Below the pieces are notes generated by a model that worked only from the letters and a program-made list of their open reading frames with translations, was not told the origin of the DNA and searched no databases. Positions 627-63,035 of a stretch of 64,000 nt of DNA are shown in pieces. The DNA comes from Megaustenia siamemsis. Taxonomy: Eukaryota > Mollusca > Gastropoda > Stylommatophora > Ariophantidae. Location of the stretch: NCBI GenBank assembly GCA_032433765.1, contig JAVIAB010000101.1, forward strand, positions 57,945,592 to 58,009,591, in the 5' to 3' direction. A program made the position numbers and the translations under genes. Position 1 is the first letter of the stretch. Every line of letters starts with the position of its first letter.

Positions 627-1069
627 GGGAGATCTGGCTGGAGACAGAGATTCTTTCAGACGGGCTGTGGTGAATGCAACGTTCTATGGGAGATCTGGCT
701 GAAGACAGAGATTCTTTCAGACGGGCTGTGGTGAATGCAACGTTCTATGGGAGATCTGACTAGAGACAGAGATTCTTTCAGACGGGCTGTAGTGAATGCA
801 ACGTTCTATGGGAGATCTGACTAGAGACAGAGATTCTTTCAGACGGGCTGTGGTGAATGTAACGTTCTGTGGGAGATCTGGCTAGAGACAGAGAGATTCT
901 TTCAGACGGGCTGTGGTGAATGCAACGTTCTGTGGGAGATCTGGCTAGAGACAGAGATTCTTTCATACGGGCTGTGGTGAATGTAATGTTCTATGGGAGA
1001 TCTGGCTAGAGACAGAGAGATTCTTTCAGACGGGCTGTGATAAATGCAACGTTCTGTGGGAGATCTGAC
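627..1069 (+). repeat. 61-bp minisatellite made of LINE C coding sequence
   Basis: Units start at 627, 688, 749, 810, 871, 934 and 995, with a partial unit at 1058. Periods are 61 bp except for two 63-bp units with an extra GA. One unit encodes the LINE motif VGDLARDRDSFRRAV plus the residues after it. 61 is not a multiple of 3, so the array destroys the frame. The left flank continues the same LINE upstream. Confidence 0.9.
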
Positions 1070-1092
1070 GTGAGATTCTTTTTTTTTTAAAG

Positions 1093-1328
1093 GCTAAGGA
1101 AAGCAAACCTGAAAAAATGCTGGCTGAAATCGGATGCACTGGGCCACTGGCGCAGAACACAGTGCAACGTATTAACGGGTGTTCAGTCAGAGTGGATCTG
1201 ACAGACTCTAATTGTGATGTTCTGTCTGTGGGGGCGATCAACACACTTAGCCTGACAGCTGACTTCATATGAGAGTGTGGAATCCTTACTCTGATTGAGT
1301 CCTGAACGCAGAGAGAGAGAGAGAGAGA
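1093..1328 (+). repeat. Dispersed repeat E1 with (GA)n end
   Basis: About 220 bp repeated in reverse orientation at 19302-19523. Both copies end in a GA/CT microsatellite (GA here, CT at 19247-19305). That suggests a retroelement whose 3' end is a short simple repeat. No ORF is credible; the apparent ORFs on the minus strand are not conserved between copies. Confidence 0.65.
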
Positions 1329-1372
1329 TTCTTTTAAACGGACTTGGATAGATGCAACATTCTGCACGCAGC

Positions 1373-2076
1373 ATGCAACCTGATGATGGTAGACAAATAG
1401 CTGCAGTGTGAAATCGTGCAATTAAAAGTGAAGCTTGACAACACATCCCCAACAGAATTTAGTTTGGTAGCATCGCCAATGAAGAACTTGCCTTGACACT
1501 TTCAGCCTTCACCTTGGAATTGATATTTTGGTCAAATAAAAATGTCACGACACCACGATAAAAGACAAAACTGTAAAGGTGACTGAATACAAACCAGCAT
1601 CGTCTATAGAAGTAAGCCCAAGGGTTGAAAATGAAACCTCAGAAAACCCCAACTAGCGTGACATTTTCATCTTTGCGAGCAGGGGCGGTTGTGGTAAATT
1701 AACGCCTGCTGTCTGTAGTGCCTATAGTTACCTCACGCCAGGAAGGGTGTTTTCGGGTTTCCAATTCAGCCCTCAGGCCTACTTCTCTAGACGACAATTG
1801 ATCAACCAACCATGTCCTCTCATATTCCAACCAACGTTTGATAACCGCGCCACGCTGCAGTATCTCACATCTATTCCAATAAAATCGCAATCAATTATTG
1901 AAACAGATCACAAGCAGCCCGTGACATGCAACACGCTGCAACTAAACCATGGATCCACAGAATGGCATGACCAGCGACACAGTTCTGTTCACGTTGCACA
2001 TCACTTTGATCTGATATCTCCCGTGATTTGTGTGTATACATGTTTACATAAACAATACCGGAACGCGTTCGGTAAA
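1373..2076. other. No recognisable feature
   Basis: About 700 bp without a supportable gene, repeat or RNA. ORFs here are short and lack family motifs. Confidence 0.5.
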
Positions 2077-2395
2077 CTGTTACTATTTTTTTTTCGTTCG
2101 CCAGCTTTGACCTCTGACGAAGTCCCTGGAGACTAAGAACTGAATTTTGCGTGTTAATCCGTTTTTACCTGGCAGCCGTGTGTACAGGTGTCCCTCACCG
2201 CACAGGCAGATAACTCCGTCTTCAGAGGTGCTCATATTTTTCCTTCCATGAGTAATAGACGTTTCAAGCCGGGCCTCACTGTTTAGACCAGGGATGGTTA
2301 CCGTAGAGAGAAATCATAAATAAAAATCCCAACTGGTGCAGCCGGTATTTGAACCAACAACCTCGAGGCAACCAACCAGTCCCCTGTTACTATTT
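2077..2395 (-). mobile_element. SINE3, tRNA-derived, with 12-bp target duplication
   Basis: On the minus strand the element opens with a tRNA-like head (A box TGGTTGGTTGCC, B box GGTTCAAATACC) and ends in an A run, seen as T's at 2089-2094. It is flanked by perfect direct repeats CTGTTACTATTT at 2077-2088 and 2384-2395, the expected mark of LINE-mediated insertion. The same family occurs in plus orientation at 11310-11660. The B box carries a substitution, so pol III activity is uncertain. Confidence 0.85.
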
Positions 2396-6088: not shown

Positions 6089-6545
6089 AAAACACAAAAC
6101 AACGAGCCTTCAACAAACGTTGTGAGAACACCAGACCCAAGGGTCGACCACGAAAAAGATGGGTCGATGGAATATTAGAAGCACTAGGAAACATAACAGC
6201 ATCAGAGGCGAACAGAAGAGCAAAAGACCGCAAATTATATCTCCCCTCGACGCTGAAAGGCTGATGAGGAAGGAAAGAGGAAGAAGATAGAATATATAAA
6301 GAAATAAGAGATAAAATGGTTTGACCACGTGGCAAGGCAGAAAAAAAATCAAAACACAAAACAACAAGCCTTCAATAAGCGTTAGGAGAACACCAGATTC
6401 AAGGGCCGACCACGTAAAAGATGGTTTGACGGAATATTAGAAGTACTACTAAACATAACAGCAGCAGAGGCGAACAAAAGAGCAAAAGACCGCAAATTAT
6501 ATCTCCCCTCGACGCTAAAAGGCTAATGAGGAAAGAAAGAAGAAG
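6089..6545 (+). mobile_element. LINE family F 3' fragment, duplicated in tandem
   Basis: Two copies of one ~262-bp segment start at 6089 and 6351. Each encodes RPRKRW.DGILE.L.NITA.EAN.RAKDRKLYLPSTLKG then a stop. The joining part supplies the upstream IKWFDHVARQ motif. The minus-strand copy at 38920-39320 shares RPRKRWAGQILETLGNIAAEANR. This is a two-unit tandem duplication of a LINE end, possibly an early stage of the array formation seen elsewhere. Confidence 0.8.
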
Positions 6546-6639
6546 AAGTATGTTTAAGTACTATATTTTCTTATTTAATTTCATTGTTTCTGTTTTGGTT
6601 TTATGTTGTAAACGTTGCAGACATTATTCGTTATCATTG

Positions 6640-9389: not shown

Positions 9390-9424
<35 letters not shown>

Positions 9425-10010: not shown

Positions 10011-10021
10011 AGTTCAAGGCG

Positions 10022-10615
10022 AGAACGCTTAGCTGCTGTTTGGATCATCTTCACAATCAAGAGAACGTTTAGTTGTTGTGTTTGGATCATCTTCACAAGC
10101 AAGAGAACGTTTAGTTGCTATTTGGATCATCTTCACAAACAAGAGAACATTTAGTTGCTATTTGAATCATCTTCACAAACAAGAGAACATTTAGTTGCTA
10201 TTTGGATCATCTTCACAAACAAGAGAACGTTTAGTTGCTATTTGGATCATCTTCACAAACAAGAGAAAATTTAGTTGCTATTTGGATCATCTTCACAAAC
10301 AAGAGAACGCTTAGTTGCTATTTGGATCATCTTCACAAGCAAGAGAACGTTTAGTTGCTATTTGGATCATCTTCACAAACAAGAGAAAATTTAGTTGCTA
10401 TTTGGATCATCTTCACAAACAAGAGAACGCTTGGTTGCTATTTGGATCATCTTCACAAGCAAGAGAAAGTTTAGTTGCTATTTGGATCATCTTCACAAAC
10501 AAGAGAACATTTAGTTGCTATTTGGATCATCTTCACAAACAAGAGAACATTTAGTTGCTATTTGGATCATCTTCACAAGCAAGAGAACATTTAGTTGCTG
10601 TTTGGATCATCTTCA
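10022..10615. repeat. 40-bp minisatellite, ~15 units
   Basis: Unit GAGAACGTTTAGTTGC plus TATTTGGATCATCTTCACAAACAA. The first two units differ in length; later ones are exactly 40 bp. Open frames through it are artefacts. Confidence 0.95.
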
Positions 10616-10639
10616 CCGCACACCGAACGAACCGATAGG

Positions 10640-15777: not shown

Positions 15778-16250
15778 ATAGACTTGCAGAAGATAATATG
15801 GATAGTGCCGCCTCCTTTCTGTAAATATTGAGATTTGCCTCTGAATTATGACTCGAACTCGAGTCTACGGCCGTGATTTTGACGTCACATAATTTCCGGT
15901 TTCGGCTAAAATGTCATTTTGTGCTAAACGGGAAATTTCATATGTAACATTTCTTTATAAAAATTTATAGTGGAAACATAACTATTTTAGGACGGTGCGC
16001 ATTCAGCCGTGAAGGTCATGCCTATATGTTAAAGAATCAGCTGTGAGATGTAAGCATCTACATAATCCCGCCGGTGTTTATAATATCGATTAACTTTTTT
16101 TTAATATAGGTTAAATAAGGCATCTTTGAAACTGGATCACATTTCTTTGATAAAAAAATATTTTTATAGCGACATTAGTATTCTAAACCTAACTTCAAAA
16201 GATCAATGCAAATGAACAATAAGTTTTTGAAAAAAATAAATTAATGTCTA

Positions 16251-16908: not shown

Positions 16909-16909
<1 letters not shown>

Positions 16910-19523: not shown

Positions 19524-19589
19524 TTGATTGTCCCCAATCTTCCTGCAAGGCAGCAGATGATCTTTTCTGTAGGAGGATTCTGCCCTTAG

Positions 19590-20475
19590 ATTGTGAATTT
19601 AAATATCTAGGAACAATGTTAACCTCAGATGGTAGATGTACAACAGAGGTGAGATGGTAGATGCACAACAGAGGTGAGATGGTAGATGTACAACAGAGGT
19701 GAGATGGTAGATGTACAACAGAGGTGAGATGGAAGATGTACAACAGAGGTGAGATGGTAGATGTACAACAGAGGTGAGATGGTAGATGTACAACAGAGGT
19801 GAGATGGTAGATGTACAACAGAGGTGAGATGGTAGATGTACAACAGAGGTGAGATGGTAGATGTACAACAGAGGTGAGATGGTAGATGTACAACAGAGGT
19901 GAGATGGTAGATGTACAACAGAGGTGAGATGGTAGATGTACAACAGAGGTGAGATACAGAATGGCTCAGGCAAAAGCAACTTTCCAAAAAATGAGGAAGG
20001 CACTGTGCAATCTATTTCTGCCAATAGAAACAGGAAAAAAAGTTCTTAAATGTTATGTAGAGCCAGTCTTAACATATGGATGTGAATCATGGATAATAGG
20101 AAACAGACAAGAAGATCACTGGAGACTGTAGAAATGTGGTTTTACAGAAGAATGTTGAGAGTACCATGGACTGCTAAAAGAATAATTAAAATGTTCTGAA
20201 AGAGGTCAAAGCAAAGAGAAAACTAATTTCCAATATTAGGAATAAACAATCATTATTTTTGGCCATGTAATGAGAAGGGGAAAGCTGGAGTATATTGTGA
20301 CAACAGAAAAATACAGAGACGAAGAGATAAAGGGAAGCAAAGAGAAAAAATGTCAGACAGCTTAAGAAATGACTTGGCAGAAGGTCAACAACATAAATGA
20401 TAAATAACTGTCGAGATCGAAAGTTGTGGAGAGACATGATAGCCTACGCCAACAGGCATGGCACTTGATGATGCT
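19590..20475 (+). mobile_element. LINE family D2, 3' half interrupted by a 25-bp array
   Basis: Encodes CEFKYLGTMLTSDGRCTTEV, then the array, then RYRMAQAKATFQKMRKALCN, VLKCYVEPVLTYGCESW and, with frameshifts, FGHVMRRGKLEYIVTT and YANRH. The 3' end is ACTTGATGATG near 20473. It meets a LINE B fragment tail-to-tail there. A minus-strand relative is at 24191-24545. Post-RT region only; not functional. Confidence 0.88.
19628..19952 (+). repeat. 25-bp minisatellite (13 exact units) inside LINE coding sequence
   Basis: 325 bp = 13 x 25, all units near-identical (GATGGTAGATGTACAACAGA plus GGTGA). The unit is the LINE's own DGRCTTEV coding segment. Keeping one unit joins SDGRCTTEV to RYRMAQ in frame. 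The extra 300 bp preserve the overall frame, but rotated units add stops (AGGTGA). Confidence 0.95.
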
Positions 20476-22199: not shown

Positions 22200-22298
22200 T
22201 CAAAGTAAAAGAGGGCAGCCTTGAGAAACATTAACAACTCCAAAAGAAGCAATTGTGGCAGACATAGACTCACTTGCTATAACTGAATAGCTCACACA
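22200..22298 (+). mobile_element. LINE family H, C-terminal fragment leading into a 69-bp array
   Basis: Reads KRGQP.ETLTTPKEAIVADI and LTQNRDNWWETL, the pattern of many LINE C-termini (RG.P..T....A.NR..W..LV.AL). The segment from NRDNWWET on becomes the array unit. Confidence 0.65.
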
Positions 22299-23750
22299 GA
22301 ATAGAGACAATTGGTGGGAGACTCTACGAGCCATATATGTCCTGTCTAAAGGCACTAGAAGTATCAAGAATAGAGACAATTGGTGGGAGACTCTACGAGC
22401 CATATATGTCCTGTCTAACGGCACTAGAAGTATCAAGAATAGAGACAATTGGTGGGAGACTCTACGAGCCCTATATGTCCTGTCTAACGGCACTAGAAGT
22501 ATCAAGAATAGAGACAATTGGTGTGAGACTCTACGAGCCATATATGTCCTGTCTAACGGCACTAGAAGTATCAAGAATAGAGACAATTGGTGGGAGACTC
22601 TACGAGCCCTATATGTCCTGTCTAACGGAACTAGAAGTATCAAGAATAGAGACAATTGGTGTGAGACTCTACGAGCCATATATGTCCTGTCTAACGGCAC
22701 TAGAAGTATCAAGAATAGAGACAATTGGTGTGAGACTCTACGAGCCATATATGTCCTGTCTAACGGCACTAGAAGTATCAAGAATAGAGACAATTGGTGG
22801 GAGACTCTACGAGCCATATATGTCCTGTCTAACGGCACTAGAAGTATCAAGAATAGAGACAATTGGTGTGAGACTCTACGAGCCCTATATGTCCTGTCTA
22901 ACGGCACTAGAAGTATCAAGAATAGAGACAATTGGTGTGAGACTCTACGAGCCATATATGTCCTGTCTAACGGCACTAGAAGTATCAAGAATAGAGACAA
23001 TTGGTGGGAGACTCTACGAGCCCTATATGTCCTGTCTAACGGCACTAGAAGTATCAAGAATAGAGACAATTGGTGTGAGACTCTACGAGCCATATATGTC
23101 CTGTCTAACGGCACTAGAAGTATCAAGAATAGAGACAATTGGTGTGAGACTCTACGAGCCATATATGTCCTGTCTAACGGCACTAGAAGTATCAAGAATA
23201 GAGACAATTGGTGGGAGACTCTACCAGCCCTATATGTCCTGTCTAACGGCACAGGAAGTATCAAGAATAGAGACAATTGGTGGGAGACTCTACCAGCCCT
23301 ATTTGACCTGTCTAACGGCACTGGAAGTATCAAGAATAAAGACAATTGTAGGGAGACTCTACCAGCCCTATATGTCCTGTCTAACGGCACAGGAAGTATC
23401 AAGAATAGAGACAATTGGTGGGAGACTCTACCAGCCCTATTTGACCTGTCTAACGGCACTGGAAGTATCAAGAATAGAGACAATTGTAGGAAGACTCTAC
23501 CAGCCCTATATGTCCTGTCTAACGGCACTAGAAGTATCAAGAATAGAGACAATTGGCGGGAGACTCTACGAGCCCTATATGTCCTGTCTAACGGCACTAG
23601 AGTATCAAGAATAGAGACAATTGGCGGGAGACTCTACCAGCCCTATATGTCCTGTCTAACGGCACTGGAAGTATCATGAATAGAGACAATTGGTGGGAGA
23701 CTCTACGAGCCTTATATGTCCTGTCTAACGGCACTGGAAGTATCATGAAT
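22299..23750 (+). repeat. 69-bp minisatellite, ~21 units, LINE-derived
   Basis: Unit starts AGAATAGAGACAATTGGTGG; period 69 bp (23 codons) with one 1-bp deletion near 23600. In the LINE frame a unit reads NRDNWWETLRAIYVLSNG plus TRSIK. Because 69 is divisible by 3, long frames stay open: 425 codons on plus and 465 on minus. Variants (GGG/GTG, ACGAG/ACCAG, CATATA/CCTATT) mark subgroups; ACCAG units cluster at 23220-23520. No evidence the ORFs are translated. Confidence 0.95.
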
Positions 23751-23753
23751 AAG

Positions 23754-28512: not shown

Positions 28513-29705
28513 CCCTTGTTCGTTTCCTTGTATGGCTTGTATGCACGACTTGTAGAAAGCAGGCATGGTTCCGTAATGGTGTGGGCTTGCGTTGTTGATT
28601 TTTGTGTGCCTGATGAGCTTGAGTCCCACGTAGTAATGGAAGGACGGGTAGCTGTGTGGCCGTTGAACGATGCGTCCCACAGGGCCGATTCTGAAGGATT
28701 TTATTTTGGAGTTGATGTCTTTTGTAGAGCGATTCCCCCGCCGTATTTCCTTTGGATCAGTGTTTCGTGTTTTATATTGTGGATGACGTTTCAAAAGATG
28801 AACTTGTTGATGTGCTTGTTAATTTTGTGAGTAATGTGCCGAGGTGGGTCGAGAACTGTGATCGTGTAGAGTAGTTTGGGTATGATGATGATATTGTTGA
28901 CGACGATACTTCTGCCGAAGATAGTTGATGTTTTGTGTTGATATCTCAGCAGGGTGTCGGTGATGTTTTGTGTTGATATCTCAGCAGGGTGTCGGTGATG
29001 TTTTGTGTTGATATCTCAGCAGGGTGTCGGTGATGTTTTGTGTTGATATCTCAGCAGGGTGTCGGTGATGTTTTGTGTTGATATCTCAGCAGGGTGTCGG
29101 TGATGTTTTGTGTTGATATCTCAGCAGGGAGTCGGTGATTTTTGTGGTTAGAGCCTGCCATGTGGGTTTGCTTATCTTGGGGTTGCACTGGAAGGTGATG
29201 CCGTACACCGTCATGACGTCGACGGATGCCAGTCCTAAAGGGAAATCCTTTTTCTTCTGCCACCTGCCGATCCCCATGATGGATGACTTCTTCTCGTTGA
29301 TCTTCACTCCGCTGATGTTACCGAAGTCTGTGTATGTTTGGATGATGTTTGTTATTGAGCGGTCGCTTGTGGGGAAGAAGATGGTGTCGTCGGCGTATGC
29401 GATGAGCTTCCGTTGTCCTACTCCTGGTATAAAGGTGCCTCTGATGGATTCGTCTTTTCTTATATTTTTTTCAAGTAACGGCTCTAAGGCTAGGATGTAG
29501 AGTAGCGGAGATAGAGGGCATCCCTGTCTGACGGACCTGGTTAGTGTGAAGGACTCCGTGAGTGTGTGATTGACGAGGACTTTGCTCTCAGGTCTGGAAT
29601 ACAGGATTTGAATCCATCGTCGGAAGTTGTCTCCTATGTTGCAGTTGTGCAGCGTCTTGTGTAGGTAGGAGTGTGATAGGGAATAATAGAACAAAGAAGT
29701 TGTCC
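28513..29705 (-). pseudogene. L1/Tx1-like LINE reverse transcriptase remnant
   Basis: RNA-directed DNA polymerase of a non-LTR retrotransposon, read leftward from 29694. Visible RT blocks are LSHSYLHKTL, VRQGCPLSPLLYILALEPLL (block 4), LIAYADDTIFF (catalytic YADD) and GVKINEKKSSIMGIG. After the 35-bp array, in another frame, come FGRSIVVNNIIIPKLLYTI, PPRHITHKINK, LIQRKYGGGIAL and SYPSFHYYVGLKL. The thumb/C-terminal order fits L1/Tx1-type LINEs. At least one extra stop and the array make it non-functional. The N-terminal endonuclease was not identified. Confidence 0.88.
28926..29135 (-). repeat. 35-bp minisatellite (6 exact units) inside LINE coding sequence
   Basis: Unit starts at 28926, 28961, 28996, 29031, 29066 and 29101; one mismatch in the last. 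It encodes the RT segment around LLRYQHKTS. Five extra units add 175 bp, shifting the frame by one. With a single unit, TDSLLRYQHKTS continues directly into TIFGRSIVVNN in frame. Confidence 0.95.
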
Positions 29706-29728
29706 TTTATTGGAGTGTATCGAAAGGT

Positions 29729-39545: not shown

Positions 39546-39604
39546 TGCACATATACATGTACAAACATATAAAATATATGGACTAGATATGAAACTGGAC
39601 TAGA

Positions 39605-43236: not shown

Positions 43237-43274
43237 GACTATTTATAACAAACAGCTGAAAGTGACGGTGGAGA

Positions 43275-47530: not shown

Positions 47531-47599
47531 CCCACGATTTGCCTCTTCTTAGCCTGGCACCTTTCCCTGTGTTGAACACGTGGTGCAAAGGTTTCTTGA

Positions 47600-50500
47600 G
47601 ACCGTCTTCTTCTGTTGTCATGTTCTAGTCTCTCTGATGTCTTGAGACCGTCTTCTTCTCTTGTCATGTTCTAGTCTCTCTGGTGTCTGGACCGTCTTCT
47701 TCTGTTGTCATGTTCTAGTCTCTCTGATGTCTTGAGACCATCTTCTTTTGTTGTCATGTTCTAGTCTCTCTGATGTCTTGAGACCATCTTCTTCTGTTGT
47801 CATGTTCTAGTCTCTCTGATGTCTTGAGACCGTCTTCTTTTGTTGTCATGTTCTAGTCTCTCTGATGTCTTGAGACCATCTTCTTCTGTTGTCATGTTCT
47901 AGTCTCTCTGATGTCTTGAGACCATCTTCTTCTGTTGTCATGTTCTAGTTTCTCTGATGTCTTGAGACCATCTTCTTTTGTTGTCATGTTCTAGTCTCTC
48001 TGATGTCTTGAGACCGTCTTCTTCTGTTGTCATGTTCTAGTCTGTCTGATGTCTTGAGATCGTCTTTTTTTTTGTCATGTTCTAGTCTCTCTGGTGTCTT
48101 GAGACCGTCTTCTTCTGTTGTCATGTTCTAGTCTCTCTGATGTCTTGAGATTGTCTTCTTCTGTTGTCATGTTCTAATTTCTCTGATGTCCTTGAGACCG
48201 TCTTCTTCTGTTGTCATGTTCTAGTTTCTCTGATGTCTTGAGACCGTCTTCTTCTGTTGTCATGTTCTAGTCTCTCTGATGTCTTGAGACCGTCTTCTTC
48301 TCTTGTCATGTTCTAGTCTCTCTGGTGTCTTGAGACCGTCTTCTTCTGTTGTCATGTTCTAGTCTCTCTGATGTCTTGAGACCATCTTCTTTTGTTGTCA
48401 TGTTCTAGTCTCTCTGATGTCTTGAACCATCTTCTTCTGTTGTCATGTTCTAGTCTCTTTGATGTCTTGAGACCGTCTTCTTTTGTTGTCATGTTCTAGT
48501 CTCTCTGATGTCTTGAGACCATCTTCTTCTGTTGTCATGTTCTAGTCTCTCTGATGTCTTGAGACCATCTTCTTCTGTTGTCATGTTCTAGTTTCTCTGA
48601 TGTCTTGAGACCATCTTCTTTTGTTGTCATGTTCTAGTCTCTCTGATGTCTTGAAACCGTCTTCTTCTGTTGTCATGTTCTAGTCTGTCTGATGTCTTGA
48701 GATCGTCTTTTTTTTTGTCATGTTCTTGTCTCTCTGGTGTCTTGAGACCGTCTTCTTCTGTTGTCATGTTCTAGTCTCTCTGATGTCTTGAGATTGTCTT
48801 CTTCTGTTGTCATGTTCTAATTTCTCTGATGTCTTGAGACCGTCTTCTTCTGTTGTCATGTTCTAGTTTCTCTGATGTCTTGAGACCGTCTTCTTCTGTT
48901 GTCATGTTCTAGTCTCTCTGATGTCTTGAGACCGTCTTCTTCTGTTGTCATGTTTCTAGTCTCTCTGATGTCTTGAGATCGTCTTCTTATGTTGTCATGT
49001 TTCTAGTCTCTCTGATGTCTTGAGATCGTCTTCTTCTGTTGTCATGTTCTAGTTTCTCTGATGTCTTGAGACCGTCTTCTTCTGTTGTCATGTTCTAGTC
49101 TCTCTGGTGTTTTGAGACCATCTTCTTCTGTTGTTATGTTCTAGTCTCTCTGATGTCTTGAGACTGCCTTCTTCTGTTGTCATTTTTCTAGTCTCTCTTG
49201 TGTCTTGAGACGTCTTCTTCTGTTGTCATGTTCTAGTCTCTCTGATGTCTTGAGACCATCTTCTTCTGTTGTCATGTTCTAGTCTCTCTGATGTCTTGAG
49301 ACCGTCTTCTTCTGTTGTCATGTTCTAGTCTCTCTGGTGTCTTGAGACCGTCTTCTTCTGTTGTCATGTTCAAGTCTCTCTGATGTCTTGAGACCGTCTT
49401 CTTCTGTTGTCATGTTCTAGTCTCTCAGGTTTGTTGAGATCGTCTTCTTCTGTTGTCATGTTCTAGTCTCTCTGGTGTCTTGAGACCATCTTCTTCTGTT
49501 GTCATGTTCTAGTTTCTTTGATGTCTTGAGACCGTCTTCTTCTGTTGTCATGTTCTAATCTCTCTGATGTCTTGAGACCACCTTCTTCTTTTGTGTTGTT
49601 CTAGTCTCTCAGGTGTCTTGAGACCGACTTCTTGTTGTCATGTTCTAGTCTCTCTGGTGTCTTGAGACCGTCTTCTTCTCTTGTCATGTTCTAGTCTCTC
49701 TGGTGTCTTGAGACCGCCTTCTTCTGTTGTCATGTTCTAGTCTCTCTGGTGTCTTGAGACCGTCTTCTTCTCTTGTCATGTTCTAGTCTCTCAGGTGTCT
49801 TGAGACCGACTTCTTCTCTTGTCATGTTCTAGTCTCTCTGATGTCTTGAGACCGACTTCTTCTGTTGTTATGTTCTAGTCTCTCAGGTGTCTTGAGACCG
49901 ACTTCTTCTCTTGTCATGTTCTAGTCTCTCTGATGTCTTGAGACCGACTTCTTCTGTTGTTATGTTCTAGTCTCTAGGTGTCTTGAGACCGTCTTCTTCT
50001 GTTGTCATGTTCTAGTCCATCTGTTGTCTTGAAGACCACCTTCTTCTGTTGTCATGTTCTAGTCTCTCTGGTGTCTTGAGACCACCTTCTTCTGTTGTCA
50101 TCTTTTAGTCTCTCTGGTGTCTTGAGACCGTCTTCTTCTGTTGTCATGTTCTAGTCTCTCTGGTGTCTTGAGACCGTCTTCTTCTGTTGTCATGTTCTAG
50201 TCTGTCTGATGTCTTGAGATCGTCTTCTTCTGTTGTCATGTTCTAGTCTCTCTGGTGTCTTGAGACCGACTTCTTCTGTTGTCATCTTTTAGTCTCTCTG
50301 GTGTCTTGAGACCGACTTCTTCTGTTGTCATGTTCTAGTCTCTGGTGTCTTGAGACCACCTTCCTCTGTTGTCATGTTCTAGTTTCTCTGATGTCTTGAG
50401 ACCGTCTTCTTCTCTTGTCATGTTCTAGTCTCTCTGGTGTCTTGAGACCACCTTCTTCTGTTGTGTTGTTCTAGTCTATCTGGTGTCTTGAGACCGACTT

Positions 50501-53500
50501 CTTCTGTTATCATGTTCTAGTCTCTCTGGTGTCTTGAGACCGACTTCTTCTGTTATCATGTTCTAGTCTATCTGGTGTCTTGAGACCCTCTTCTTCTGTT
50601 GTGTTGTTCTAATCTATCTGGTGTCTTGAGACCGACTTCTTCTGTTATCATGTTCTAGTCTATCTGGTGTCTTGAGACCGACTTCTTCTGTTGTGTTGTT
50701 CTAGTCTCTCTGGTGTCTTGAGACCGTCTTCTTCTCTTGTCATGTTCTAGTCTCTCTGGTGTCTTGAGACCGCCTTCTTCTGTTGTCATGTTCTAGTCTC
50801 TCTGGTGTCTTGAGACCGTCTTCTTCTGTTGTCATGTTCTAGTCTCTCTGGTGTCTTGAGACCGCCTTCTTCTGTTGTCATGTTCTAGTCTCTCTGATGT
50901 CTTGAGACCGTCTTCTTCTGTTGTCATGTTCTAGTCTGTCTGATGTCTTGAGATCGTCTTTTTTTTTGTCATGTTTAGTCTCTCTGGTGTCTTGAGACCG
51001 TCTTCTTCTGTTGTCATGTTCTAGTCTCTCTGATGTCTTGAGATTGTCTTCTTCTGTTGTCATGTTCTAATTTCTCTGATGTCTTGAGACCGTCTTCTTC
51101 TGTTGTCATGTTCTAGTTTCTCTGATGTCTTGAGACCGTCTTCTTCTGTTGTCATGTTCTAGTCTCTCTGATGTCTTGAGACCGTCTTCTTCTCTTGTCA
51201 TGTTCTAGTCTCTCTGGTGTCTTGAGACCGTCTTCTTCTGTTGTCATGTTCTAGTCTCTCTGATGTCTTGAGACCATCTTCTTTTGTTGTCATGTTCTAG
51301 TCTCTCTGATGTCTTGAGACCATCTTCTTCTGTTGTCATGTTCTAGTCTCTCTGATGTCTTGAGACCGTCTTCTTTTGTTGTCATGTTCTAGTCTCTCTG
51401 ATGTCTTGAGACCATCTTCTTCTGTTGTCATGTTCTAGTCTCTCTGATGTCTTGAGACCATCTTCTTCTGTTGTCATGTTCTAGTTTCTCTGATGTCTTG
51501 AGACCATCTTCTTTTGTTGTCATGTTCTAGTCTCTCTGATGTCTTGAGACCGTCTTCTTCTGTTGTCATGTTCTAGTCTGTCTGATGTCTTGAGATCGTC
51601 TTTTTTTTTGTCATGTTCTAGTCTCTCTGGTGTCTTGAGACCGTCTTCTTCTGTTGTCATGTTCTAGTCTCTCTGATGTCTTGAGATTGTCTTCTTCTGT
51701 TGTCATGTCTAATTTCTCTGATGTCTTGAGACCGTCTTCTTCTGTTGTCATGTTCTAGTTTCTCTGATGTCTTGAGACCGTCTTCTTCTGTTGTCATGTT
51801 CTAGTCTCTCTGATGTCTTGAGACCGTCTTCTTCTCTTGTCATGTTCTAGTCTCTCTGGTGTCTTGAGACCGTCTTCTTCTGTTGTCATGTTCTAGTCTC
51901 TCTGATGTCTTGAGACCATCTTCTTTTGTTGTCATGTTCTAGTCTCTCTGATGTCTTGAGACCATCTTCTTCTGTTGTCATGTTCTAGTCTCTTTGATGT
52001 CTTGAGACCGTCTTCTTTTGTTGTCATGTTCTAGTCTCTCTGATGTCTTGAGACCATCTTCTTCTGTTGTCATGTTCTAGTCTCTCTGATGTCTTGAGAC
52101 CATCTTCTTCTGTTGTCATGTTCTAGTTTCTCTGATGTCTTGAGACCATCTTCTTTTGTTGTCATGTTCTAGTCTCTCTGATGTCTTGAACCGTCTTCTT
52201 CTGTTGTCATGTTCTAGTCTGTCTGATGTCTTGAGATCGTCTTTTTTTTTGTCATGTTCTTGTCTCTCTGGTGTCTTGAGACCGTCTTCTTCTGTTGTCA
52301 TGTTCTAGTCTCTCTGATGTCTTGAGATTGTCTTCTTCTGTTGTCATGTTCTAATTTCTCTGATGTCTTGAGACCGTCTTCTTCTGTTGTCATGTTCTAG
52401 TTTCTCTGATGTCTTGAGACCGTCTTCTTCTGTTGTCATGTTCTAGTCTCTCTGATGTCTTGAGACCGTCTTCTTCTGTTGTCATGTTTCTAGTCTCTCT
52501 GATGTCTTGAGATCGTCTTCTTATGTTGTCATGTTCTAGTCTCTCTGATGTCTTGAGATCGTCTTCTTCTGTTGTCATGTTCTAGTTTCTCTGATGTCTT
52601 GAGACCGTCTTCTTCTGTTGTCATGTTCTAGTCTCTCTGGTGTTTTGAGACCATCTTCTTCTGTTGTTATGTTTCTAGTCTCTCTGATGTCTTGAGACTG
52701 CCTTCTTCTGTTGTCATTTTCTAGTCTCTCTTGTGTCTTGAGACCGTCTTCTTCTGTTGTCATGTTCTAGTCTCTCTGATGTCTTGAGACCATCTCTTCT
52801 GTTGTCATGTTCTAGTCTCTCTGATGTCTTGAGACCGTCTTCTTCTGTTGTCATGTTCTAGTCTCTCTGGTGTCTTGAGACCGTCTTCTTCTGTTGTCAT
52901 GTTCAAGTCTCTCTGATGTCTTGAGACCGTCTTCTTCTGTTGTCATGTTCTAGTCTCTCAGGTTTGTTGAGATCGTCTTCTTCTGTTGTCATGTTCTAGT
53001 CTCTCTGGTGTCTTGAGACCATCTTCTTCTGTTGTCATGTTCTAGTTTCTTTGATGTCTTGAGACCGTCTTCTTCTGTTGTCATGTTCTAATCTCTCTGA
53101 TGTCTTGAGACCACCTTCTTCTTTTGTGTTGTTCTAGTCTCTCAGGTGTCTTGAGACCGACTTCTTGTTGTCATGTTCTAGTCTCTCTGGTGTCTTGAGA
53201 CCGTCTTCTTCTCTTGTCATGTTCTAGTCTCTCTGGTGTCTTGAGACCGCCTTCTTCTGTTGTCATGTTCTAGTCTCTCTGGTGTCTTGAGACCGTCTTC
53301 TTCTCTTGTCATGTTCTAGTCTCTCAGGTGTCTTGAGACCGACTTCTTCTCTTGTCATGTTCTAGTCTCTCTGATGTCTTGAGACCGACTTCTTCTGTTG
53401 TTATGTTCTAGTCTCTCAGGTGTCTTGAGACCGACTTCTTCTCTTGTCATGTTCTAGTCTCTCTGATGTCTTGAGACCGACTTCTTCTGTTGTTATGTTC

Positions 53501-56500
53501 TAGTCTCTAGGTGTCTTGAGACCGTCTTCTTCTGTTGTCATGTTCTAGTCCATCTGTTGTCTTGAAGACCACCTTCTTCTGTTGTCATGTTCTAGTCTCT
53601 CTGGTGTCTTGAGACCACCTTCTTCTGTTGTCATCTTTTAGTCTCTCTGGTGTCTTGAGACCGTCTTCTTCTGTTGTCATGTTCTAGTCTCTCTGGTGTC
53701 TTGAGACCGACTTCTTCTGTTGTCATCTTTAGTCTCTCTGGTGTCTTGAGACCGACTTCTTCTGTTGTCATGTTCAGTCTCTGGTGTCTTGAGACCACCT
53801 TCCTCTGTTGTCATGTTCTAGTTTCTCTGATGTCTTGAGACCGTCTTCTTCTCTTGTCATGTTCTAGTCTCTCTGGTGTCTTGAGACACCTTCTTCTGTT
53901 GTGTTGTTCTAGTCTATCTGGTGTCTTGAGACCGACTTCTTCTGTTATCATGTTCTAGTCTCTCTGGTGTCTTGAGACCGACTTCTTCTGTTATCATGTT
54001 CTAGTCTATCTGGTGTCTTGAGACCCTCTTCTTTCTGTTGTGTTGTTCTAATCTATCTGGTGTCTTGAGACCGACTTCTTCTGTTATCATGTTCTAGTCT
54101 ATCTGGTGTCTTGAGACCGACTTCTTCTGTTGTGTTGTTCTAGTCTCTCTGGTGTCTTGAGACCGTCTTCTTCTCTTGTCATGTTCTAGTCTCTCTGGTG
54201 TCTTGAGACCGCCTCTCTGTTGTCATGTTCTAGTCTCTCTGGTGTCTTGAGACCGTCTTCTTCTGTTGTCATGTTCTAGTCTCTCTGGTGTCTTGAGACC
54301 GCCTTCTTCTGTTGTCATGTTCTAGTCTCTCTGATGTCTTGAGACCGTCTTCTTCTGTTGTCATGTTCTAGTCTGTCTGATGTCTTGAGATCGTCTTTTT
54401 TTTTGTCATGTTCTAGTCTCTCTGGTGTCTTGACCGTCTTCTTCTGTTGTCATGTTCTAGTCTCTCTGATGTCTTGAGATTGTCTTCTTCTGTTGTCATG
54501 TTCTATTTCTCTGATGTCTTGAGACCGTCTTCTTCTGTTGTCATGTTCTAGTTTCTCTGATGTCTTGAGACCGTCTTCTTCTGTTGTCATGTTCTAGTCT
54601 CTCTGATGTCTTGAGACCGTCTTCTTCTCTTGTCATGTTCTAGTCTCTCTGGTGTCTTGAGACCGTCTTCTTCTGTTGTCATGTTCTAGTCTCTCTGATG
54701 TCTTGAGACCATCTTCTTTTGTTGTCATGTTCTAGTCTCTCTGATGTCTTGAGACCATCTTCTTCTGTTGTCATGTTCTAGTCTCTCTGATGTCTTGAGA
54801 CCGTCTTCTTTTGTTGTCATGTTCTAGTCTCTCTGATGTCTTGAGACCATCTTCTTCTGTTGTCATGTTCTAGTCTCTCTGATGTCTTGAGACCATCTCT
54901 TCTGTTGTCATGTTCTAGTTTCTCTGATGTCTTGAGACCATCTTCTTTTGTTGTCATGTTCTAGTCTCTCTGATGTCTTGAAACCGTCTTCTTCTGTTGT
55001 CATGTTCTAGTCTGTCTGATGTCTTGAGATCGTCTTTTTTTTGTCATGTTCTAGTCTCTCTGGTGTCTTGAGACCGTCTTCTTCTGTTGTCATGTTCTAG
55101 TCTCTCTGATGTCTTGAGATTGTCTTCTTCTGTTGTCATGTTCTAATTTCTCTGATGTCTTGAGACCGTCTTCTTCTGTTGTCATGTTCTAGTTTCTCTG
55201 ATGTCTTGAGACCGTCTTCTTCTGTTGTCATGTTCTAGTCTCTCTGATGTCTTGAGACCGTCTTCTTCTGTTGTCATGTTCTAGTCTCTCTGATGTCTTG
55301 AGATCGTCTTCTTATGTTGTCATGTTCTAATTTCTCTGATGTCTTGAGACCGTCTTCTTCTGTTGTCATGTTCTAGTTTCTCTGATGTCTTGAGACCGTC
55401 TTCTTCTGTTGTCATGTTCTAGTCTTTCTGGTGTTTTGAGACCATCTTCTTCTGTTGTTATGTTCTAGTCTCTCTGATGTCTTGAGACTGCCTTCTTCTG
55501 TTGTCATTTTCTAGTCTCTCTTGTGTCTTGAGACCGTCTTCTTCTGTTGTCATGTTCTAGTCTCTCTGATGTCTTGAGACCATCTTCTTCTGTTGTCATG
55601 TTCTAGTCTCTCTGATGTCTTGAGACCGTCTTCTTCTGTTTTCATGTTCTAGTCTCTCTGATGTCTTGAGACCATCTTCTTCTGTTGTCATGTTTCTAGT
55701 TTCTTTGATGTCTTGAGACCGTCTTCTTCTGTTGTCATGTTCTAATCTCTCTGATGTCTTGAGACCACCTTCTTCTTTTGTGTTGTTCTAGTCTCTCAGG
55801 TGTCTTGAGACCGACTTCTTGTTGTCATGTTCTAGTCTCTCTGGTGTCTTGAGACCGTCTTCTTCTCTTGTCATGTTCTAGTCTCTCTGGGTCTTGAGAC
55901 CGCCTTCTTCTGTTGTCATGTTTCTAGTCTCTCTGGTGTCTTGAGACCGTCTTCTTCTCTTGTCATGTTCTAGTCTCTCAGGTGTCTTGAGACCGACTTC
56001 TTCTCTTGTCATGTTCTAGTCTCTCTGATGTCTTGAGACCGACTTCTTCTGTTGTTATGTTCTAGTCTCTCAGGTGTCTTGAGACCGACTTCTTCTCTTG
56101 TCATGTTTCTAGTCTCTCTGATGTCTTGAGACCGACTTCTTCTGTTGTCATCTTTTAGTCTCTCTGGTGTCTTGAGACCGACTTCTTCTGTTGTCATGTT
56201 CTAGTCTCTGGTGTCTTGAGACCACCTTCCTCTGTTGTCATGTTCTAGTTTCTCTGATGTCTTGAGACCGTCTTCTCTCTTGTCATGTTCTAGTCTCTCT
56301 GTGTCTTGAGACCACCTTCTTCTGTTGTGTTGTTCTAGTCTATCTGGTGTCTTGAGACCGACTTCTTCTGTTATCATGTTTCTAGTCTCTCTGGTGTCTT
56401 GAGACCGACTCTTCTTTGTTATCATGTTCTAGTCTATCTGGTGTCTTGAGACCCTCTTCTTCTGTTGTGTTGTTCTAATCTATCTGGTGTCTTGAGACCG

Positions 56501-59500
56501 ACTTCTTCTGTTATCATGTTCTAGTCTATCTGGTGTCTTGAGACCGACCTTCTTCTGTTGTGTTGTTCTAGTCTCTCTGGTGTCTTGAGACCGTCTTCTT
56601 CTCTTGTCATGTTCTAGTCTCTCTGGTGTCTTGAGACCGCCTTCTTCTGTTGTCATGTTCTAGTCTCTCTGGTGTCTTGAGACCGTCTTCTTCTGTTGTC
56701 ATGTTCTAGTCTCTCTGGTGTCTTGAGACCGCCTTCTTCTGTTGTCATGTTCTAGTCTCTCTGATGTCTTGAGACCGTCTTCTTCTGTTGTCATTTTCTA
56801 GTCTGTCTGATGTCTTGAGATCGTCTTTTTTTTTGTCATGTTCTAGTCTCTCTGGTGTCTTGAGACCGTCTTCTTCTGTTGTCATGTTCTAGTCTCTCTG
56901 ATGTCTTGAGATTGTCTTCTTCTGTTGTCATGTTCTAATTTCTCTGATGTCTTGAGACCGTCTTCTTCTGTTGTCATGTTCTAGTTTCTCTGATGTCTTG
57001 AGACCGTCTTCTTCTGTTGTCATGTTCTAGTCTCTCTGATGTCTTGAGACCGTCTTTCTTCTCTTGTCATGTTCTAGTCTCTCTGGTGTCTTGAGACCGT
57101 CTTCTTCTGTTGTCATGTTCTAGTCTCTCTGATGTCTTGAGACCATCTTCTTTTGTTTGTCATGTTCTAGTCTCTCTGATGTCTTGAGACCATCTTCTTC
57201 TGTTGTCATGTTCTAGTCTCTCTGATGTCTTGAGACCGTCTTCTTTTGTTGTCATGTTTCTAGTCTCTCTGATGTCTTGAGACCATCTTCTTCTGTTGTC
57301 ATGTTCTAGTCTCTCTGATGTCTTGAGACCATCTTCTTCTGTTGTCATGTTCTAGTTTCTCTGATGTCTTGAGACCATCTTCTTTTGTTGTCATGTTTCT
57401 AGTCTCTCTGATGTCTTGAAACCGTCTTCTTCTGTTGTCATGTTCTAGTCTGTCTGATGTCTTGAGATCGTCTTTTTTTGTCATGTTCTAGTCTCTCTGG
57501 TGTCTTGAGACCGTCTTCTTCTGTTGTCATGTTCTAGTCTCTCTGATGTCTTGAGATTGTCTTCTTCTGTTGTCATGTTCTAATTTCTCTCTGATGTCTT
57601 GAGACGTCTTCTCTGTTGTCATGTTCTAGTTCTCTGATGTCTTGAGACCGTCTTCTCTGTTGTCATGTTCTAGTCTCTCTGATGTCTTGAGACCGTCTTC
57701 TTCTGTTGTCATGTTCTAGTCTCTCTGATGTCTTGAGATCGTCTTCTTATGTTGTCATGTTCTAATTTCTCTGATGTCTTGAGACCGTCTTCTTCTGTTG
57801 TCATGTTCTAGTTTCTCTGATGTCTTGAGACCGTCTTCTTCTGTTGTCATGTTCTAGTCTTTCTGGTGTTTTGAGACCATCTTCTTCTGTTGTTATGTTC
57901 TAGTCTCTCTGATGTCTTGAGACTGCCTTCTTCTGTTGTCATTTTCTAGTCTCTCTTGTGTCTTGAGACCGTCTTCTTCTGTTGTCATGTTCTAGTCTCT
58001 CTGATGTCTTGAGACCATCTTCTTCTGTTGTCATGTTCTAGTCTCTCTGATGTCTTGAGACCGTCTTCTTCTGTTGTCATGTTCTAGTCTCTCTGGTGTC
58101 TTGAGACCGTCTTCTTCTGTTGTCATGTTCTAGTCTCTCTGATGTCTTGAGACCGTCTTCTTCTGTTGTCATGTTCTAGTCTCTCAGGTTTGTTGAGATC
58201 GTCTTCTTCTGTTGTCATGTTCTAGTCTCTCTGGTGTCTTGAGACCATCTTCTTCTGTTGTCATGTTCTAGTTTCTTTGATGTCTTGAGACCGTCTTCTT
58301 CGTGTTGTCATGTTCTAATCTCTCTGATGTCTTGAGACCACCTTCTTCTTTTGTGTTGTTTCTAGTCTCTCAGGTGTCTTGAGACCGACTTCTTGTTGTC
58401 ATGTTCTAGTCTCTCTGGTGTCTTGAGACCGTCTTCTTCTCTTGTCATGTTCTAGTCTCTCTGGTGTCTTGAGACCGCCTTCTTCTGTTGTCATGTTCTA
58501 GTCTCTCTGGTGTCTTGAGACCGTCTTCTTCTCTTGTCATGTTCTAGTCTCTCAGGTGTCTTGAGACCGACTTCTTCTCTTGTCATGTTCTAGTCTCTCT
58601 GATGTCTTGAGACCGACTTCTTCTGTTGTTATTTCTAGTCTCTCAGGTGTCTTGAGACCGACTTCTTCTGTTGTTATGTTCTAGTCTCTCAGGTGTCTTG
58701 AGACCGACTTCTTCTCTTGTCATGTTCTAGTCTCTCTGATGTCTTGAGACCGACTTCTTCTGTTGTTATGTTCTAGTCTCTAGGTGTCTTGAGACCGTCT
58801 TCTTCTGTTGTCATGTTCTAGTCCATCTGTTGTCTTGAAGACCACCTTCTTCTGTTGTCATTTCTAGTCTCTCTGGTGTCTTGAGACCACCTTCTTCTGT
58901 TGTCATCTTTTAGTCTCTCTGGTGTCTGAGACCGTCTTCTTCTGTTTGTCATGTTCTAGTCTCTCTGGTGTCTTGAGACCGTCTTCTTCTGTTGTCATGT
59001 TCTAGTCTGTCTGATGTCTTGAGATCGTCTTCTTCTGTTGTCATGTTCTAGTCTCTCTGGTGTCTTTGAGACCGACTTCTTCTGTTGTCATCTTTTAGTC
59101 TCTCTGGTGTCTTGAGACCGACTTCTTCTGTTGTCATGTTCTAGTCTCGGTGTCTTGAGACCACCTCCTCTGTTGTCATGTTCTAGTTTCTCTGATGTCT
59201 TGAGACCGTCCTTCTTCTCTTGTCATGTTTCTAGTCTCTCTGTGTCTTGAGACCACCTTCTCGTTGTGTTGTTCTAGTCTATCTGGTGTCTTGAGACCGA
59301 CTTCTTCTGTTTATCATGTTCTAGTCTCTCTGGTGTCTTGAGACCGACTTCTTCTGTTATCATGTTCTAGTCTATCTGGTGTCTTGAGACCCTCTTCTTC
59401 TGTTGTGTTGTTCTAGTCTATCTGGTGTCTTGAGACCGACTTCTTCTGTTATCATGTTCTAGTCTATCTGGTGTCTTGAGACCGACTTCTTTTGTTGTGT

Positions 59501-60582
59501 TGTTCTAGTCTCTCTGGTGTCTTGAGACCGTCTTCTTCTCTTGTCATGTTCTAGTCTCTCTGGTGTCTTGAGACGCCTTCTCTGTTGTCATGTTTCTAGT
59601 CTCTCTGGTGTCTTGAGACCGTCTTCTTCTGTTGTCATGTTCTAGTCTCTCTGGTGTCTTGAGACCGCCTTCTTCTGTTGTCATGTTCTAGTCTCTCTGG
59701 TGTCTTGAGACCGTCTTCTTCTCTTGTCATGTTCTAGTCTCTCTGGTGTCTTGAGACCGTCTTCTCTGTTGTCATGTTCTAGTCTCTCTGGTGTCTTGAG
59801 ACCGTCTTCTTCTGTTGTCATGTTCTAGTCTATCTGGTGTCTTGAGACCGACTTCTTCTGTTATCATGTTCTAGTCTATCTGGTGTCTTGAGACCGACTT
59901 CTTCTGTTGTGTTGTTCTAGTCCTCTCTGTGTCTTGAGACCGTCTTCTTCTCTTGTCATGTTCTAGTCTCTCTGGTGTCTTGAGACCGCCTTCTTCTGTT
60001 GTCATGTTCTAGTCTCTCTGTGTCTTGAGACCGTCTTCTTCTGTTGTCATGTTCTAGTCTCTCTGGTGTCTTGAGACCGCCTTCTTCTGTTGTCCATGTT
60101 CTAGTCTCCCTGGTGTCTTGAGACCGCCTTCTTCTGTTTGTCATGTTCTAGTCTCTCTTGTGTCTTGAACCGTCTTTCTCTCTTGTCATGTTCTAGTCTC
60201 TCTGGTGTCTTGAGACCGCCTTCTTCTGTTGTCATGTTCTAGTCTCTCTGGTGTCTTGAGACCGTCTTCTTCTGTTGTCATGTTCTAGTCTCTCTGGTGT
60301 CTTGAGACCGCCTTCTTTCTGTTGTCATGTTCTAGTCTCTCTGGTGTCCTTGAGACCGCCTTCTTCTGTTGTCATGTTCTAGTCTCTCTTGTGTCTTGAG
60401 ACCGTCTTCTTCTCTTGTCATGTTCTAGTCTCTCTGGTGTCTTGAGACCGTCTTCTTCTCTTGTCATGTTCTAGTCTCTCTGGTGTCTTGAGACCGCCTT
60501 CTTCTGTTGTCATGTTCTAGTCTCTCTGATGTCTTGAGACCGACTTCTTCTGTTGTCATGTTCTAGTCTCTCTGGTGTCTTA
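47600..60582. repeat. Giant 46-bp minisatellite, ~280 units, with higher-order repeats
   Basis: Unit GTCTTCTTCTGTTGTCATG plus TTCTAGTCTCTCTGATGTCTTGAGACC. Variant units recur in the same order. One junction variant (AGACCGACTTCTTGTTG) starts at 49621, 53154, 55808 and 58382, spacings 3533, 2654 and 2574 bp, showing amplification of multi-kb blocks. Short units with a T8 run (GTCTTTTTTTTTGTCATG) recur too. 46 is not a multiple of 3, so no long ORF survives. The unit resembles LINE C at 17700-17760. Confidence 0.97.
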
Positions 60583-61165
60583 ATTTTGACTGTAACTGAC
60601 TGCTGATTGTAGCTTACTGACTGCTTATTTTGACTGTGGTTTGACTGCAACTGTAGCTGACTGACTGCTAATTTTGACTAGCTTACTGACTGCTAATTTT
60701 GACTGTAGCTGACTGCCTGCTAATTTTGACTGTGGTTGACTGCTGACTGCCTGCTAATTTTGACTGTGGTTGACTGCTGACTGACTGCTAATTTTGACTG
60801 TAGCTGACTGACTGCTAATTTTGACTAGCTGACTGACTGCAGTTTTGACTGTAGCTGACTGACTGCTAGTTTTGACTGTAGCTGACTGACTGCTATTTTG
60901 ACTGTATCTGACAGTTAATTATGACTGTATCTGACAGACTATAATTTTGACTGTAGCTGACTGCTGATTGTAGCTTACTGACTGCTAATTTTTGACTGTG
61001 GTTGACTGCTGACTGTAGCTGACTGACTGCAAGTTTTGACTGTAGCTAACTGACTGCTAATTTTGATTGTAGCTGACTGACGGCTAATTTTGACTGTAGC
61101 TGACTGACGGCTAATTTTGACTGTAGCTGACTGACTGCTAATTTTGACTGTAGCTGACTGGCTGA
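60583..61165. repeat. 27-bp minisatellite, ~21 units
   Basis: Unit GACTGTAGCTGACTGACTGC plus TAATTTT, with many length variants. It abuts the 46-bp array with no spacer, at GGTGTCTTAATTTTGAC. Confidence 0.93.
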
Positions 61166-61879
61166 ACTAATTTATTCATCACACTCGTACAGCTCCTATA
61201 ACATATCTCGCCTTTTTGATGTCCCAGAGCAATAACTAGGCAAGCACTCAACCTGGGCAGACTAAGAAACGAGACATACAAGAACAATAACAAATCGGTA
61301 ATTTGTAGAGATAATTTACAACATGTGTCGCATTCGCAGTTAGAGAGGAAAATGAATCAATGAAAATGTAGGTCGGTTCAACGTCCTTACTAAATGTTTG
61401 TCGTGGCCATGGAAATCCCAGCGTACATTGTTGTGCTATGACTCATTTCCTCTGACCTAACCCAAAATTGGCATATGTTACTATATAAAGCTATTTATGT
61501 CTGATGATGTGAGAAGCTTTGTTGCATCATGAAATTTCTGCAGTTTGAGTTGTCGTGTGTCATTAGACTTCACTCCCTTAGTATTTACATTCACATACCT
61601 GCTTTAATTGAAAGTCGTATATCGGTATATTGATGTCTTTTCTTTTTGCAGTATTCAATTTGTAGAATGAAACAATCTGTTATCGTTTGAAATAAAACTG
61701 TTAGCTTCACATTTAGCTTTATTTATGTGCATTTCTTTGTCCTGATCATTTCAATTGTGGGCCTATTTGGTGCTCGTCTTAAGTCTATGTCTTCTATTTT
61801 CTTCACGTGACATGTATTGCCTGATAGTTAATGAATACCTAAATTCGCTGTAAAGTTACTGCTATCAGCACGATATGAA
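61166..61879. other. No recognisable feature
   Basis: About 700 bp of unique-looking AT-rich sequence. Confidence 0.5.
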
Positions 61880-62001
61880 GATAAATGTAGAAAACTGAAA
61901 TCGTGAACATAAGTAGAACACGGAGAAAACATGAAACATCTCAACAGACAATTATAAATTAAAGAAAGTACAAAGAATTCAAATATCTGGGTAGTGTATG
62001 T
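61875..62001 (+). mobile_element. LINE family K, RT C-terminal fragment
   Basis: Reads GMKINVEK (frame slip) and KYKEFKYLGSV, the conserved strand pair at the end of the LINE polymerase core. It continues after a nested insertion into the 63-bp array. Confidence 0.75.
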
Positions 62002-62244
62002 CTATCTATCTATCATTGTCCTTTCGAGCCGACGACGGCACATATGGCAGAACCACAAATCTCAAAACAGAAACCTTGCGTGCCAAAAATGCACATCTTG
62101 CAGAGATCACTGCTCTATAATATATTTGGCGTTGTTTCCATAACAATACTTTTACAATGACAGCTTGTCAAGCCATCGACCAACCTCCTTAGTCGCCTCT
62201 TACGACATACCTGGAAGGTCACAGTGTCACTATTATTATATTAT
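62002..62244 (-). mobile_element. Nested retroelement 3' end, 10-bp target duplication
   Basis: TAGTGTATGT at 61992-62001 is repeated at 62245-62254. On the minus strand the 243-bp insert ends in GTCGGCTCGAAAGGACAATG plus a (GATA)n tail, similar to the terminal sequence at 47440-47480. It interrupts LINE K exactly at the array's first unit. Confidence 0.9.
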
Positions 62245-63035
62245 TAGTGTATGTACTGAGGTGGAAGGCTTAATAGAGAGATTGAAGCAAAAATTAAAAT
62301 ATCTGGGTAGTGTATGTACTGAGGGTGGTAGGTTTAATAGAGAGATTGAAGCAAAAATTAAAATATCTGGGTAGTGTATGTACTGAGGATGGAAGGCTTA
62401 ATAGAGAGATTGAAGCAAACATTAAAATATCTGGGTAGTGTATGTACTGAGGATGGAAGGCTTAATATAGAGATTGAAGCAAAAATTAAAATATCTGGGT
62501 AGTGTATGTACTGAGGGTGGTAGGTTTAATAGAGAGATTGAAGCAAAAATTAAAATATCTGGGTAGTGTATGTACTGAGGATGGAAGACTTAATAGAGAG
62601 ATTGAAGCAAAATTAAATATGTAGGTAGTGTATGTACTGAGGGTGATAGGTTTAATAGAGAGATTGAAGCAAACATTAAAATATCTGGGTAGTGTATGTA
62701 CTGAGGGTGGTAGGTTTAATAGAGAGATTGAAACAAACAATTAAAATATCTGGGTAGTGTATGTACTGAGGGTGGTAGGTTTAATAGAGAGATTGAAGCA
62801 AACATTAAAATATCTGGGTAGTGTATGTACTGAGGGTGGTAGGTTAATAGAGAGATTGAAGCAAACATTAAAATATCTGGGTAGTGTATGTACTGAGGAT
62901 GGAAGGCTTAATAGAGAGATTGAAGCAAACATTAAAATATCTGGGTAGTGTATGTACTGAGGATGGAAGGCTTAATAGAGAGATTGAACAAAATTAAAAT
63001 ATCTGGGTAGTGTATGTACTGAGGGTGGAAGGGCA
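62245..63035 (+). repeat. 63-bp minisatellite made of LINE coding sequence, ~12 units
   Basis: Each unit encodes KYLGSVCTEDGRLNREIEA plus a few residues, the same LINE segment begun at 61980. Units vary at GGTGGTAGG/GATGGAAGG and by small indels. The right end is cut by a hAT element. Confidence 0.95.

Follow-up and report, generated by a model that had tools for sequence, protein, structure and literature searches.

The 64,000-nt stretch analysed here (the window, C100:57945592-58009591) belongs to the 2.59-Gb assembly, in 155 contigs, of the stylommatophoran gastropod Megaustenia siamemsis. It carries five minisatellites, A1 to A5, whose units a first-pass annotation had read as segments of long interspersed nuclear elements (LINEs) lying past the reverse transcriptase (RT) core. 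Each array was recovered at its place by Tandem Repeats Finder (TRF). The unit lengths first given for A1 to A4 (61, 25, 69 and 35 bp) hold; A5, given as 63 bp, has a unit of 64 bp. As shown in Table 1, all five units derive from the second open reading frame (ORF2) of a LINE, in three regions that follow the RT core.

Matches to these units were found in a reference sample of 20 random 10-kb loci (L009-L028; 200 kb in total) and elsewhere. When the A2 array is collapsed to one unit, the site matches L021 (72% over 76 amino acids, E 3e-28), and more than 400 bp of LINE sequence lie on its right side. The collapsed A4 protein aligns across the array site, with the unit ungapped, to P0005, P0008, P0010 and P0017, in an alignment that took in 4 of 37 outside RT protein matches; the best of the 37 to bear an organism name is an RT of the slug Arion vulgaris. 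The A4 LINE is presumably of the L1/Tx1 type. A hidden Markov model (HMM) of the post-RT YLG motif scored 15.8 bits with the A5 unit, the part of A5 that the LINE test covered, and 8.4 bits with that of A2, none of 3,030 shuffled units reaching more than 5.9; the motif amplified in both arrays reads 'YLG...DGR...E[IV]'. Because an HMM of the C-terminal motif gave no unit a score above the shuffles, the LINE origin of A1 and A3 rests on DNA and flank matches. For A1, the left flank and the unit taken together share 83% identity across 162 bp with L015:9718-9560, a single-unit LINE C-terminus, and 79% across 149 bp with a single-copy LINE C-terminus in L009. For A3, the left flank plus unit corresponds to residues 594-648 of a 648-residue LINE ORF in L010 (E 1.3e-6). 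Collapsed-site, HMM, protein-alignment and DNA matches rule out a chance resemblance of the five units to LINEs, and in this respect the initial description of the units as recognizable LINE segments past the RT was borne out. Its statement that the rest of the LINE flanks each array applies on both sides to A4 and to A2, whose left part is 33 bp long, and on the left side only to A1 and A3, which sit at the end of ORF2. Different LINE segments were indeed hit; the difference in families is apparent from a reading of the units rather than from a tree. The two-copy duplication first placed at 6089-6545 exists as well (Table 1).

Table 1. The five arrays and the LINE features associated with them in the window
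Feature	Position	Strand	Unit x copies, or size	Origin or match	Program
A1	626..1069	+	61 bp x 7.2	LINE ORF2 C-terminus (..VGDLAGDRDSFRRAVVNATF)	TRF
A2	19627..19955	+	25 bp x 13.2	post-RT YLG/TSDGR motif	TRF
A3	22298..23751	+	69 bp x 21.1	LINE ORF2 C-terminus (..LTQNRDNWWETLRAL)	TRF
A4	28926..29146	-	35 bp x 6.3	just past LINE RT core	TRF
A5	62245..63032	+	64 bp x 12.4	YLG post-RT motif, as A2; other LINE family by reading	TRF
LINE sequence left of A2 (..FKYLGTMLTS)	19594..19626	+	33 bp	LINE 5' end near 19594	
LINE post-RT sequence right of A2	19956..20400	+		87-89% DNA identity to L014, L021, L023	
RT ORF of A4 LINE, overlapping array	29086..29706	-		RVT_1 E 9.7e-17	
Two-copy tandem duplication	6089..6548	+	198 nt, spacing 262	L004-family LINE C-terminus; copies 89% identical	

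Counts of loci carrying each array, in which the window locus itself is included, differ widely. With at most 3 mismatches the A2 dimer yielded 29,581 matches genome-wide (14,356+15,225) and the reversed-pattern control 0. Patterns of equal length (50-mers) gave 23,546 single-unit LINE copies, 796 left and 1,172 right array edges, again with 0 for the reversed controls, and the tandem unit edges fall at one LINE site and phase. The A1 tandem junction had 8,352 matches (4,062+4,290), and the places listed for it include 44 separate loci; the A4 dimers had 323 (196+127), with 18 loci among those listed. Matches to the A3 junction numbered 93, at 10 loci; its letters differ between loci and a 67-bp spacing occurs at five of the other loci. 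The 9 matches to the A5 junction are all inside A5. A1 to A4 are copies of arrays present at many places and only A5 is private. The first-pass annotation had taken the arrays for independent local recurrences of one process. Since each of their tandem junctions recurs elsewhere, at between 9 and about 1,000 further places, A1 to A4 were probably not born from a local insertion; birth in situ from a LINE holds for A5, whose unit is LINE-derived and which is a locally born array of the kind then proposed.

A2-type arrays were followed on C1, where the exact dimer matches listed include 22 separate loci, 20 of which were read. Unit number ranges from 2 to 66 in these 20, and from 2 to 35 in nine more A2-type arrays for which both edges were listed. 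The LINE that follows the array of L048 is also downstream in 17 of the 19 other C1 arrays. Wherever the end of the LINE falls inside the sequence printed, the left flanks look different to the eye, and 5' truncation varies across the 21 A2-family loci. In at least four loci (L038, L045, L050 and L051), again as judged by eye, the insertion starts inside a unit and complete units then follow. A truncated single unit could not regrow its lost head; barring a later loss of the left part, the cDNA or its template therefore already held the units in tandem. The shared right edge of the LINE, the starts within the unit and the different surroundings together indicate that an array-bearing RNA was retrotransposed. 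Upstream LINE sequence continues past the array at 6 of the 21 loci (five computed, L048 by eye), for at least ~70 bp and with 2 to 13 units. A (GAT)n 3' tail, scored by eye, is clear at 10 of the 21 loci, partial at 5 and not seen at 6.

Two features of the unit bear on how such arrays could arise and move. The array-type unit and the LINE sequence that follows it both start with AGATG, exactly 25 bp apart; in the common single-unit type the match at that spacing stops at AGA (3 bp vs 5 bp). In addition, the A2 array breaks the frame after the RT, since 25 is not a multiple of 3; units of 35, 61 and 64 bp are frame-breaking too, and the 69-bp unit keeps the frame. An array-free relative, at L021:7950-9485 (-), has an RT ORF (RVT_1, E 1.9e-60) joined by adjacency, on the same strand and in another frame, to the A2-like ORF at L021:7373-8017.

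We thus envisage that A2 is probably a mobile minisatellite borne by a LINE: a source element would have gained a tandem duplication, and retrotransposition would have spread the array as an internal variable number tandem repeat (VNTR). The source copy would first have acquired the 25-bp duplication, perhaps by slippage between the AGATG direct repeats. The array-bearing RNA would then have been retrotransposed, often with 5' truncation in or near the array, to the ~1,000 places where copies are observed, and slippage or recombination may have changed the unit number after insertion. To judge from their broken frame, array copies were probably mobilized in trans by array-free relatives. A1, A3 and A4 may have spread likewise, going by locus counts alone.

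A number of points weigh against this interpretation. The choice of C1 loci by exact dimers favours one unit type and conserved arrays, and among the C1 loci read L039 and L040 showed no L048-type LINE downstream. At most 35 bp of upstream LINE is present in 15 of the 21 array copies, which have more units than the other six (Mann-Whitney U test, p 0.016, L048 being counted by eye among the long copies; 16 versus 5, p 0.006, as computed); this link also fits arrays forming or growing during or after a truncated insertion. A search for target site duplications (TSDs), entered by 14 of the 21 loci, 4 of them without a readable 3' end, found direct repeats of at least 7 bp at both ends in 2 of 10 testable loci and in 1 of 90 mismatched pairs; with at least 6 bp the figures were 4 of 10 and 14 of 90 (means 5.6 and 4.6 bp), a weak difference obtained with hand-set ends. 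L034 has a 10-bp direct repeat at its insertion ends, also hand-set, and a candidate 9-bp TSD seen by eye at L051 was 5 bp in the scripted search. The tree of the downstream LINE, from which 5 of 26 rows had been left out beforehand for want of full LINE sequence, is nearly a star in which array copies are not one clade; it requires 3 label changes, a value as low in 21 of 500 shuffles, and one origin is not resolved by it. A2 itself has just AGAT as its direct repeat. At the remote loci of A1, A3 and A4 the junctions were counted and LINE flanks assumed, and the non-LINE array used for comparison (10021-10616; 11 matches, all within that array) is a single one.

The AGATG repeat at the exact unit spacing and the star-like tree would also suit a recurrent hotspot, at which short direct repeats lead many independent LINE copies to expand on the spot, all sharing one unit and one phase. 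So would the end branches, which span 0.041-0.11 in array copies and 0.020-0.069 in the five single-unit copies; the ranges overlap, but array copies mostly have the longer branches. Insertions that start within a unit yet hold complete units argue in the opposite direction, as do the left-flank letters AACAATG, common to the window, L035, L037 and L044, vs AACTTTG in the single-unit L021 (the other form occurs in L034, and further copies vary), and we regard such a hotspot as unlikely.

We also envisaged that the array could be made anew at each insertion by a stuttering RT that drops off soon after, leaving arrays at the 5' ends of LINE copies. In 15 of the 21 copies, those with more units, the LINE 5' end does lie inside the array or at most 35 bp from it, and the window A2, L034 and L035 start 33-35 bp upstream. 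However, drop-off inside an array already present in the RNA gives the same prediction, truncation in this region is also frequent among other copies of the A2 LINE, and the six copies mentioned above run further upstream. Moreover, around the 101 arrays of the sampled loci and window, LINE 5' ends lay nearby in 13 cases vs 17 for 3' ends, with no 5' preference. Stuttering at each insertion is quite improbable, and retrotransposition of an array that the source LINE already carried is the explanation we retain.

The first-pass annotation had further suggested 5'-truncated LINE insertions as a main seed of this genome's tandem repeats. Minisatellites, defined by a period of at least 10, at least 2.5 copies and a unit not reducible to 1-6 bp, reach an extreme density in the genome as judged from the random sample, where 75 arrays occupy 58,367 bp, or 29% of the 200 kb; the window has 26 arrays occupying 26,487 bp. 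Outside arrays, LINE-coding matches account for 25% of the DNA in the random sample and 21% in the window, the 25% figure resting on a library of 158 ORF pieces, some of whose members are doubtful.

Each array was collapsed to one or two units, keeping flanks of 150 bp, and random non-array segments of the same length served as controls; 129 of the 158 ORF pieces were used, excluding library members from the same locus. A LINE-matching unit was found in 3 of the 75 random arrays vs 17.9 expected (716 of 3,000 non-array controls), and in 3 of the 26 window arrays vs 6.0 expected, the controls for the window being drawn from the random loci too. If A1, A4 and A5 are added, the window count becomes 6 of 26, equal to expectation, but these three were added by extra tests not applied to the controls. 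In the window, the test caught three of six cases (A2, A3 and one small array, at 39576) and missed A1, A4 and A5; doubling the random count to allow for this gives ~6, still below expectation. LINE sequence anywhere in the construct occurred in 22 of the 75 random arrays, close to the 24.8 expected; the unit alone, at E 0.01, matched in 0 of 75 vs 379 of 4,500 controls. Units matching outside their own locus were found in 3 of the 101 arrays (A1, A2 and L024:2321). A flank test, in which LINE sequence stood on both sides of 1 of 75 arrays vs ~19 expected at 60 bp, was superseded by the collapsed-unit test because an array splits the LINE match and so lowers detection.

The comparison of TRF units with a LINE library, proposed genome-wide as a check that an excess over shuffled units would support, gave a deficit relative to non-array segments in the 200-kb sample, and the view of LINEs as the main seed was rejected. 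The best reading of these data is that LINEs contribute passively, and without enrichment, to the many minisatellites of the genome; it is possible that they are under-represented because LINE copies are younger than most arrays. A model in which every 5'-truncated LINE insertion gives rise locally to an array of its own, with LINEs as a main source of minisatellites, is very unlikely given this deficit and the recurrence of the A1 to A4 junctions elsewhere, even though the private, LINE-derived A5 and the 198-nt duplication, with just two copies, fit it.

Other repeats were noticed in the vicinity of these features or in the sampled loci. A dispersed repeat, 93.6% identical and on opposite strands, adjoins A1 (1089-1212) and A2 (19401-19525), and parts of it also match L014, L024, L026 and L028. 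The small array caught at 39576 (39576-39628; 15-17 bp, ~3 copies) sits on the left edge of a different LINE fragment. At L017:7902-8338, shortly before LINE sequence, a 47-bp array of the YLG post-RT motif (unit score 10.5 bits with the same HMM) is a third instance of its amplification. The 56-bp unit of L024:2321-2936 matches both L009 and window positions 34705-34760 (98%), the latter ~100 bp from the RNase H ORF (33891-34604); this array is a candidate for a further one made from a transposable element (TE). One array of the window, detected by TRF at 47594-60581, spans 13 kb and has ~283 copies of a 46-bp unit. Two coding frames were also noted: an open 456-residue transposase frame with a DDE_3 domain (E 3.4e-15) at 14494-15864 (-), presumably of the Tc1/mariner type, and a 195-residue frame at 43266-43853 (+) with a GNAT acetyltransferase domain (E 3.2e-5), possibly a host gene.

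The arrays can be set beside three known systems. In the human genome, TE-derived multi-locus tandem repeats (mlTRs) were reported by Ahmed and Liang (2012; PMC3389668): 7,276 of 31,472 minisatellites were TE-derived, 5,747 of 5,932 clusters were single-locus, spread by transposition was proposed for LTR12, and direct repeats of 5-20 bp flank 300 mlTRs. As in these, the units here are TE-derived (A1 to A5), some arrays occupy many loci (A1 to A4, not A5) and unit number is variable, as shown for A2 only; unlike the human repeats, the arrays here reach 66 units, lie in LINE ORF2 coding sequence and occur at up to ~1,000 loci, and LINE units are under-represented among the sampled arrays. The SVA/LAVA composite retrotransposons, described as hominoid-specific and for which a DNA-level, microhomology-driven expansion of the VNTR has been argued (PMC4432496), are likewise retrotransposed elements with an internal VNTR of varying unit number. 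Their VNTR is joined to parts of other elements, whereas here it is the LINE's own post-RT sequence, with no composite of unrelated parts, and the same LINE is found upstream in 6 of the 21 loci. In Lathyrus, satellites arise from tandem repeats of long terminal repeat (LTR) retrotransposons (PMC7004042), and short arrays within dispersed retrotransposons, sometimes expanding, are common to both cases; the elements there are of the LTR type and the segments here come from LINE ORF2. A literature search, by title and start of abstract, returned no paper on LINE ORF2 VNTRs in an invertebrate. What sets the present case apart is a VNTR made from the LINE's own ORF2, in more than one LINE family, with one such array reaching ~1,000 loci.

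The YLG post-RT motif was amplified twice in the window and once in L017. It is conceivable, if somewhat short of an even chance, that several LINE families have independently turned ORF2 segments into mostly frame-breaking VNTRs, some of them mobile, which would form a self-derived LINE-VNTR class outside primates; pausing or slippage of the RT at this conserved region may itself create the repeats. In conclusion, LINE sequence in the units of an array says nothing of seeding unless it is compared with the LINE content of the genome. The results separate two cases that look alike in a single window, the birth of a minisatellite at the landing site of a LINE and the delivery of an existing one by the LINE itself, and the LINE-borne kind offers hundreds of separate array copies in which gain and loss of units after insertion would be directly measurable.

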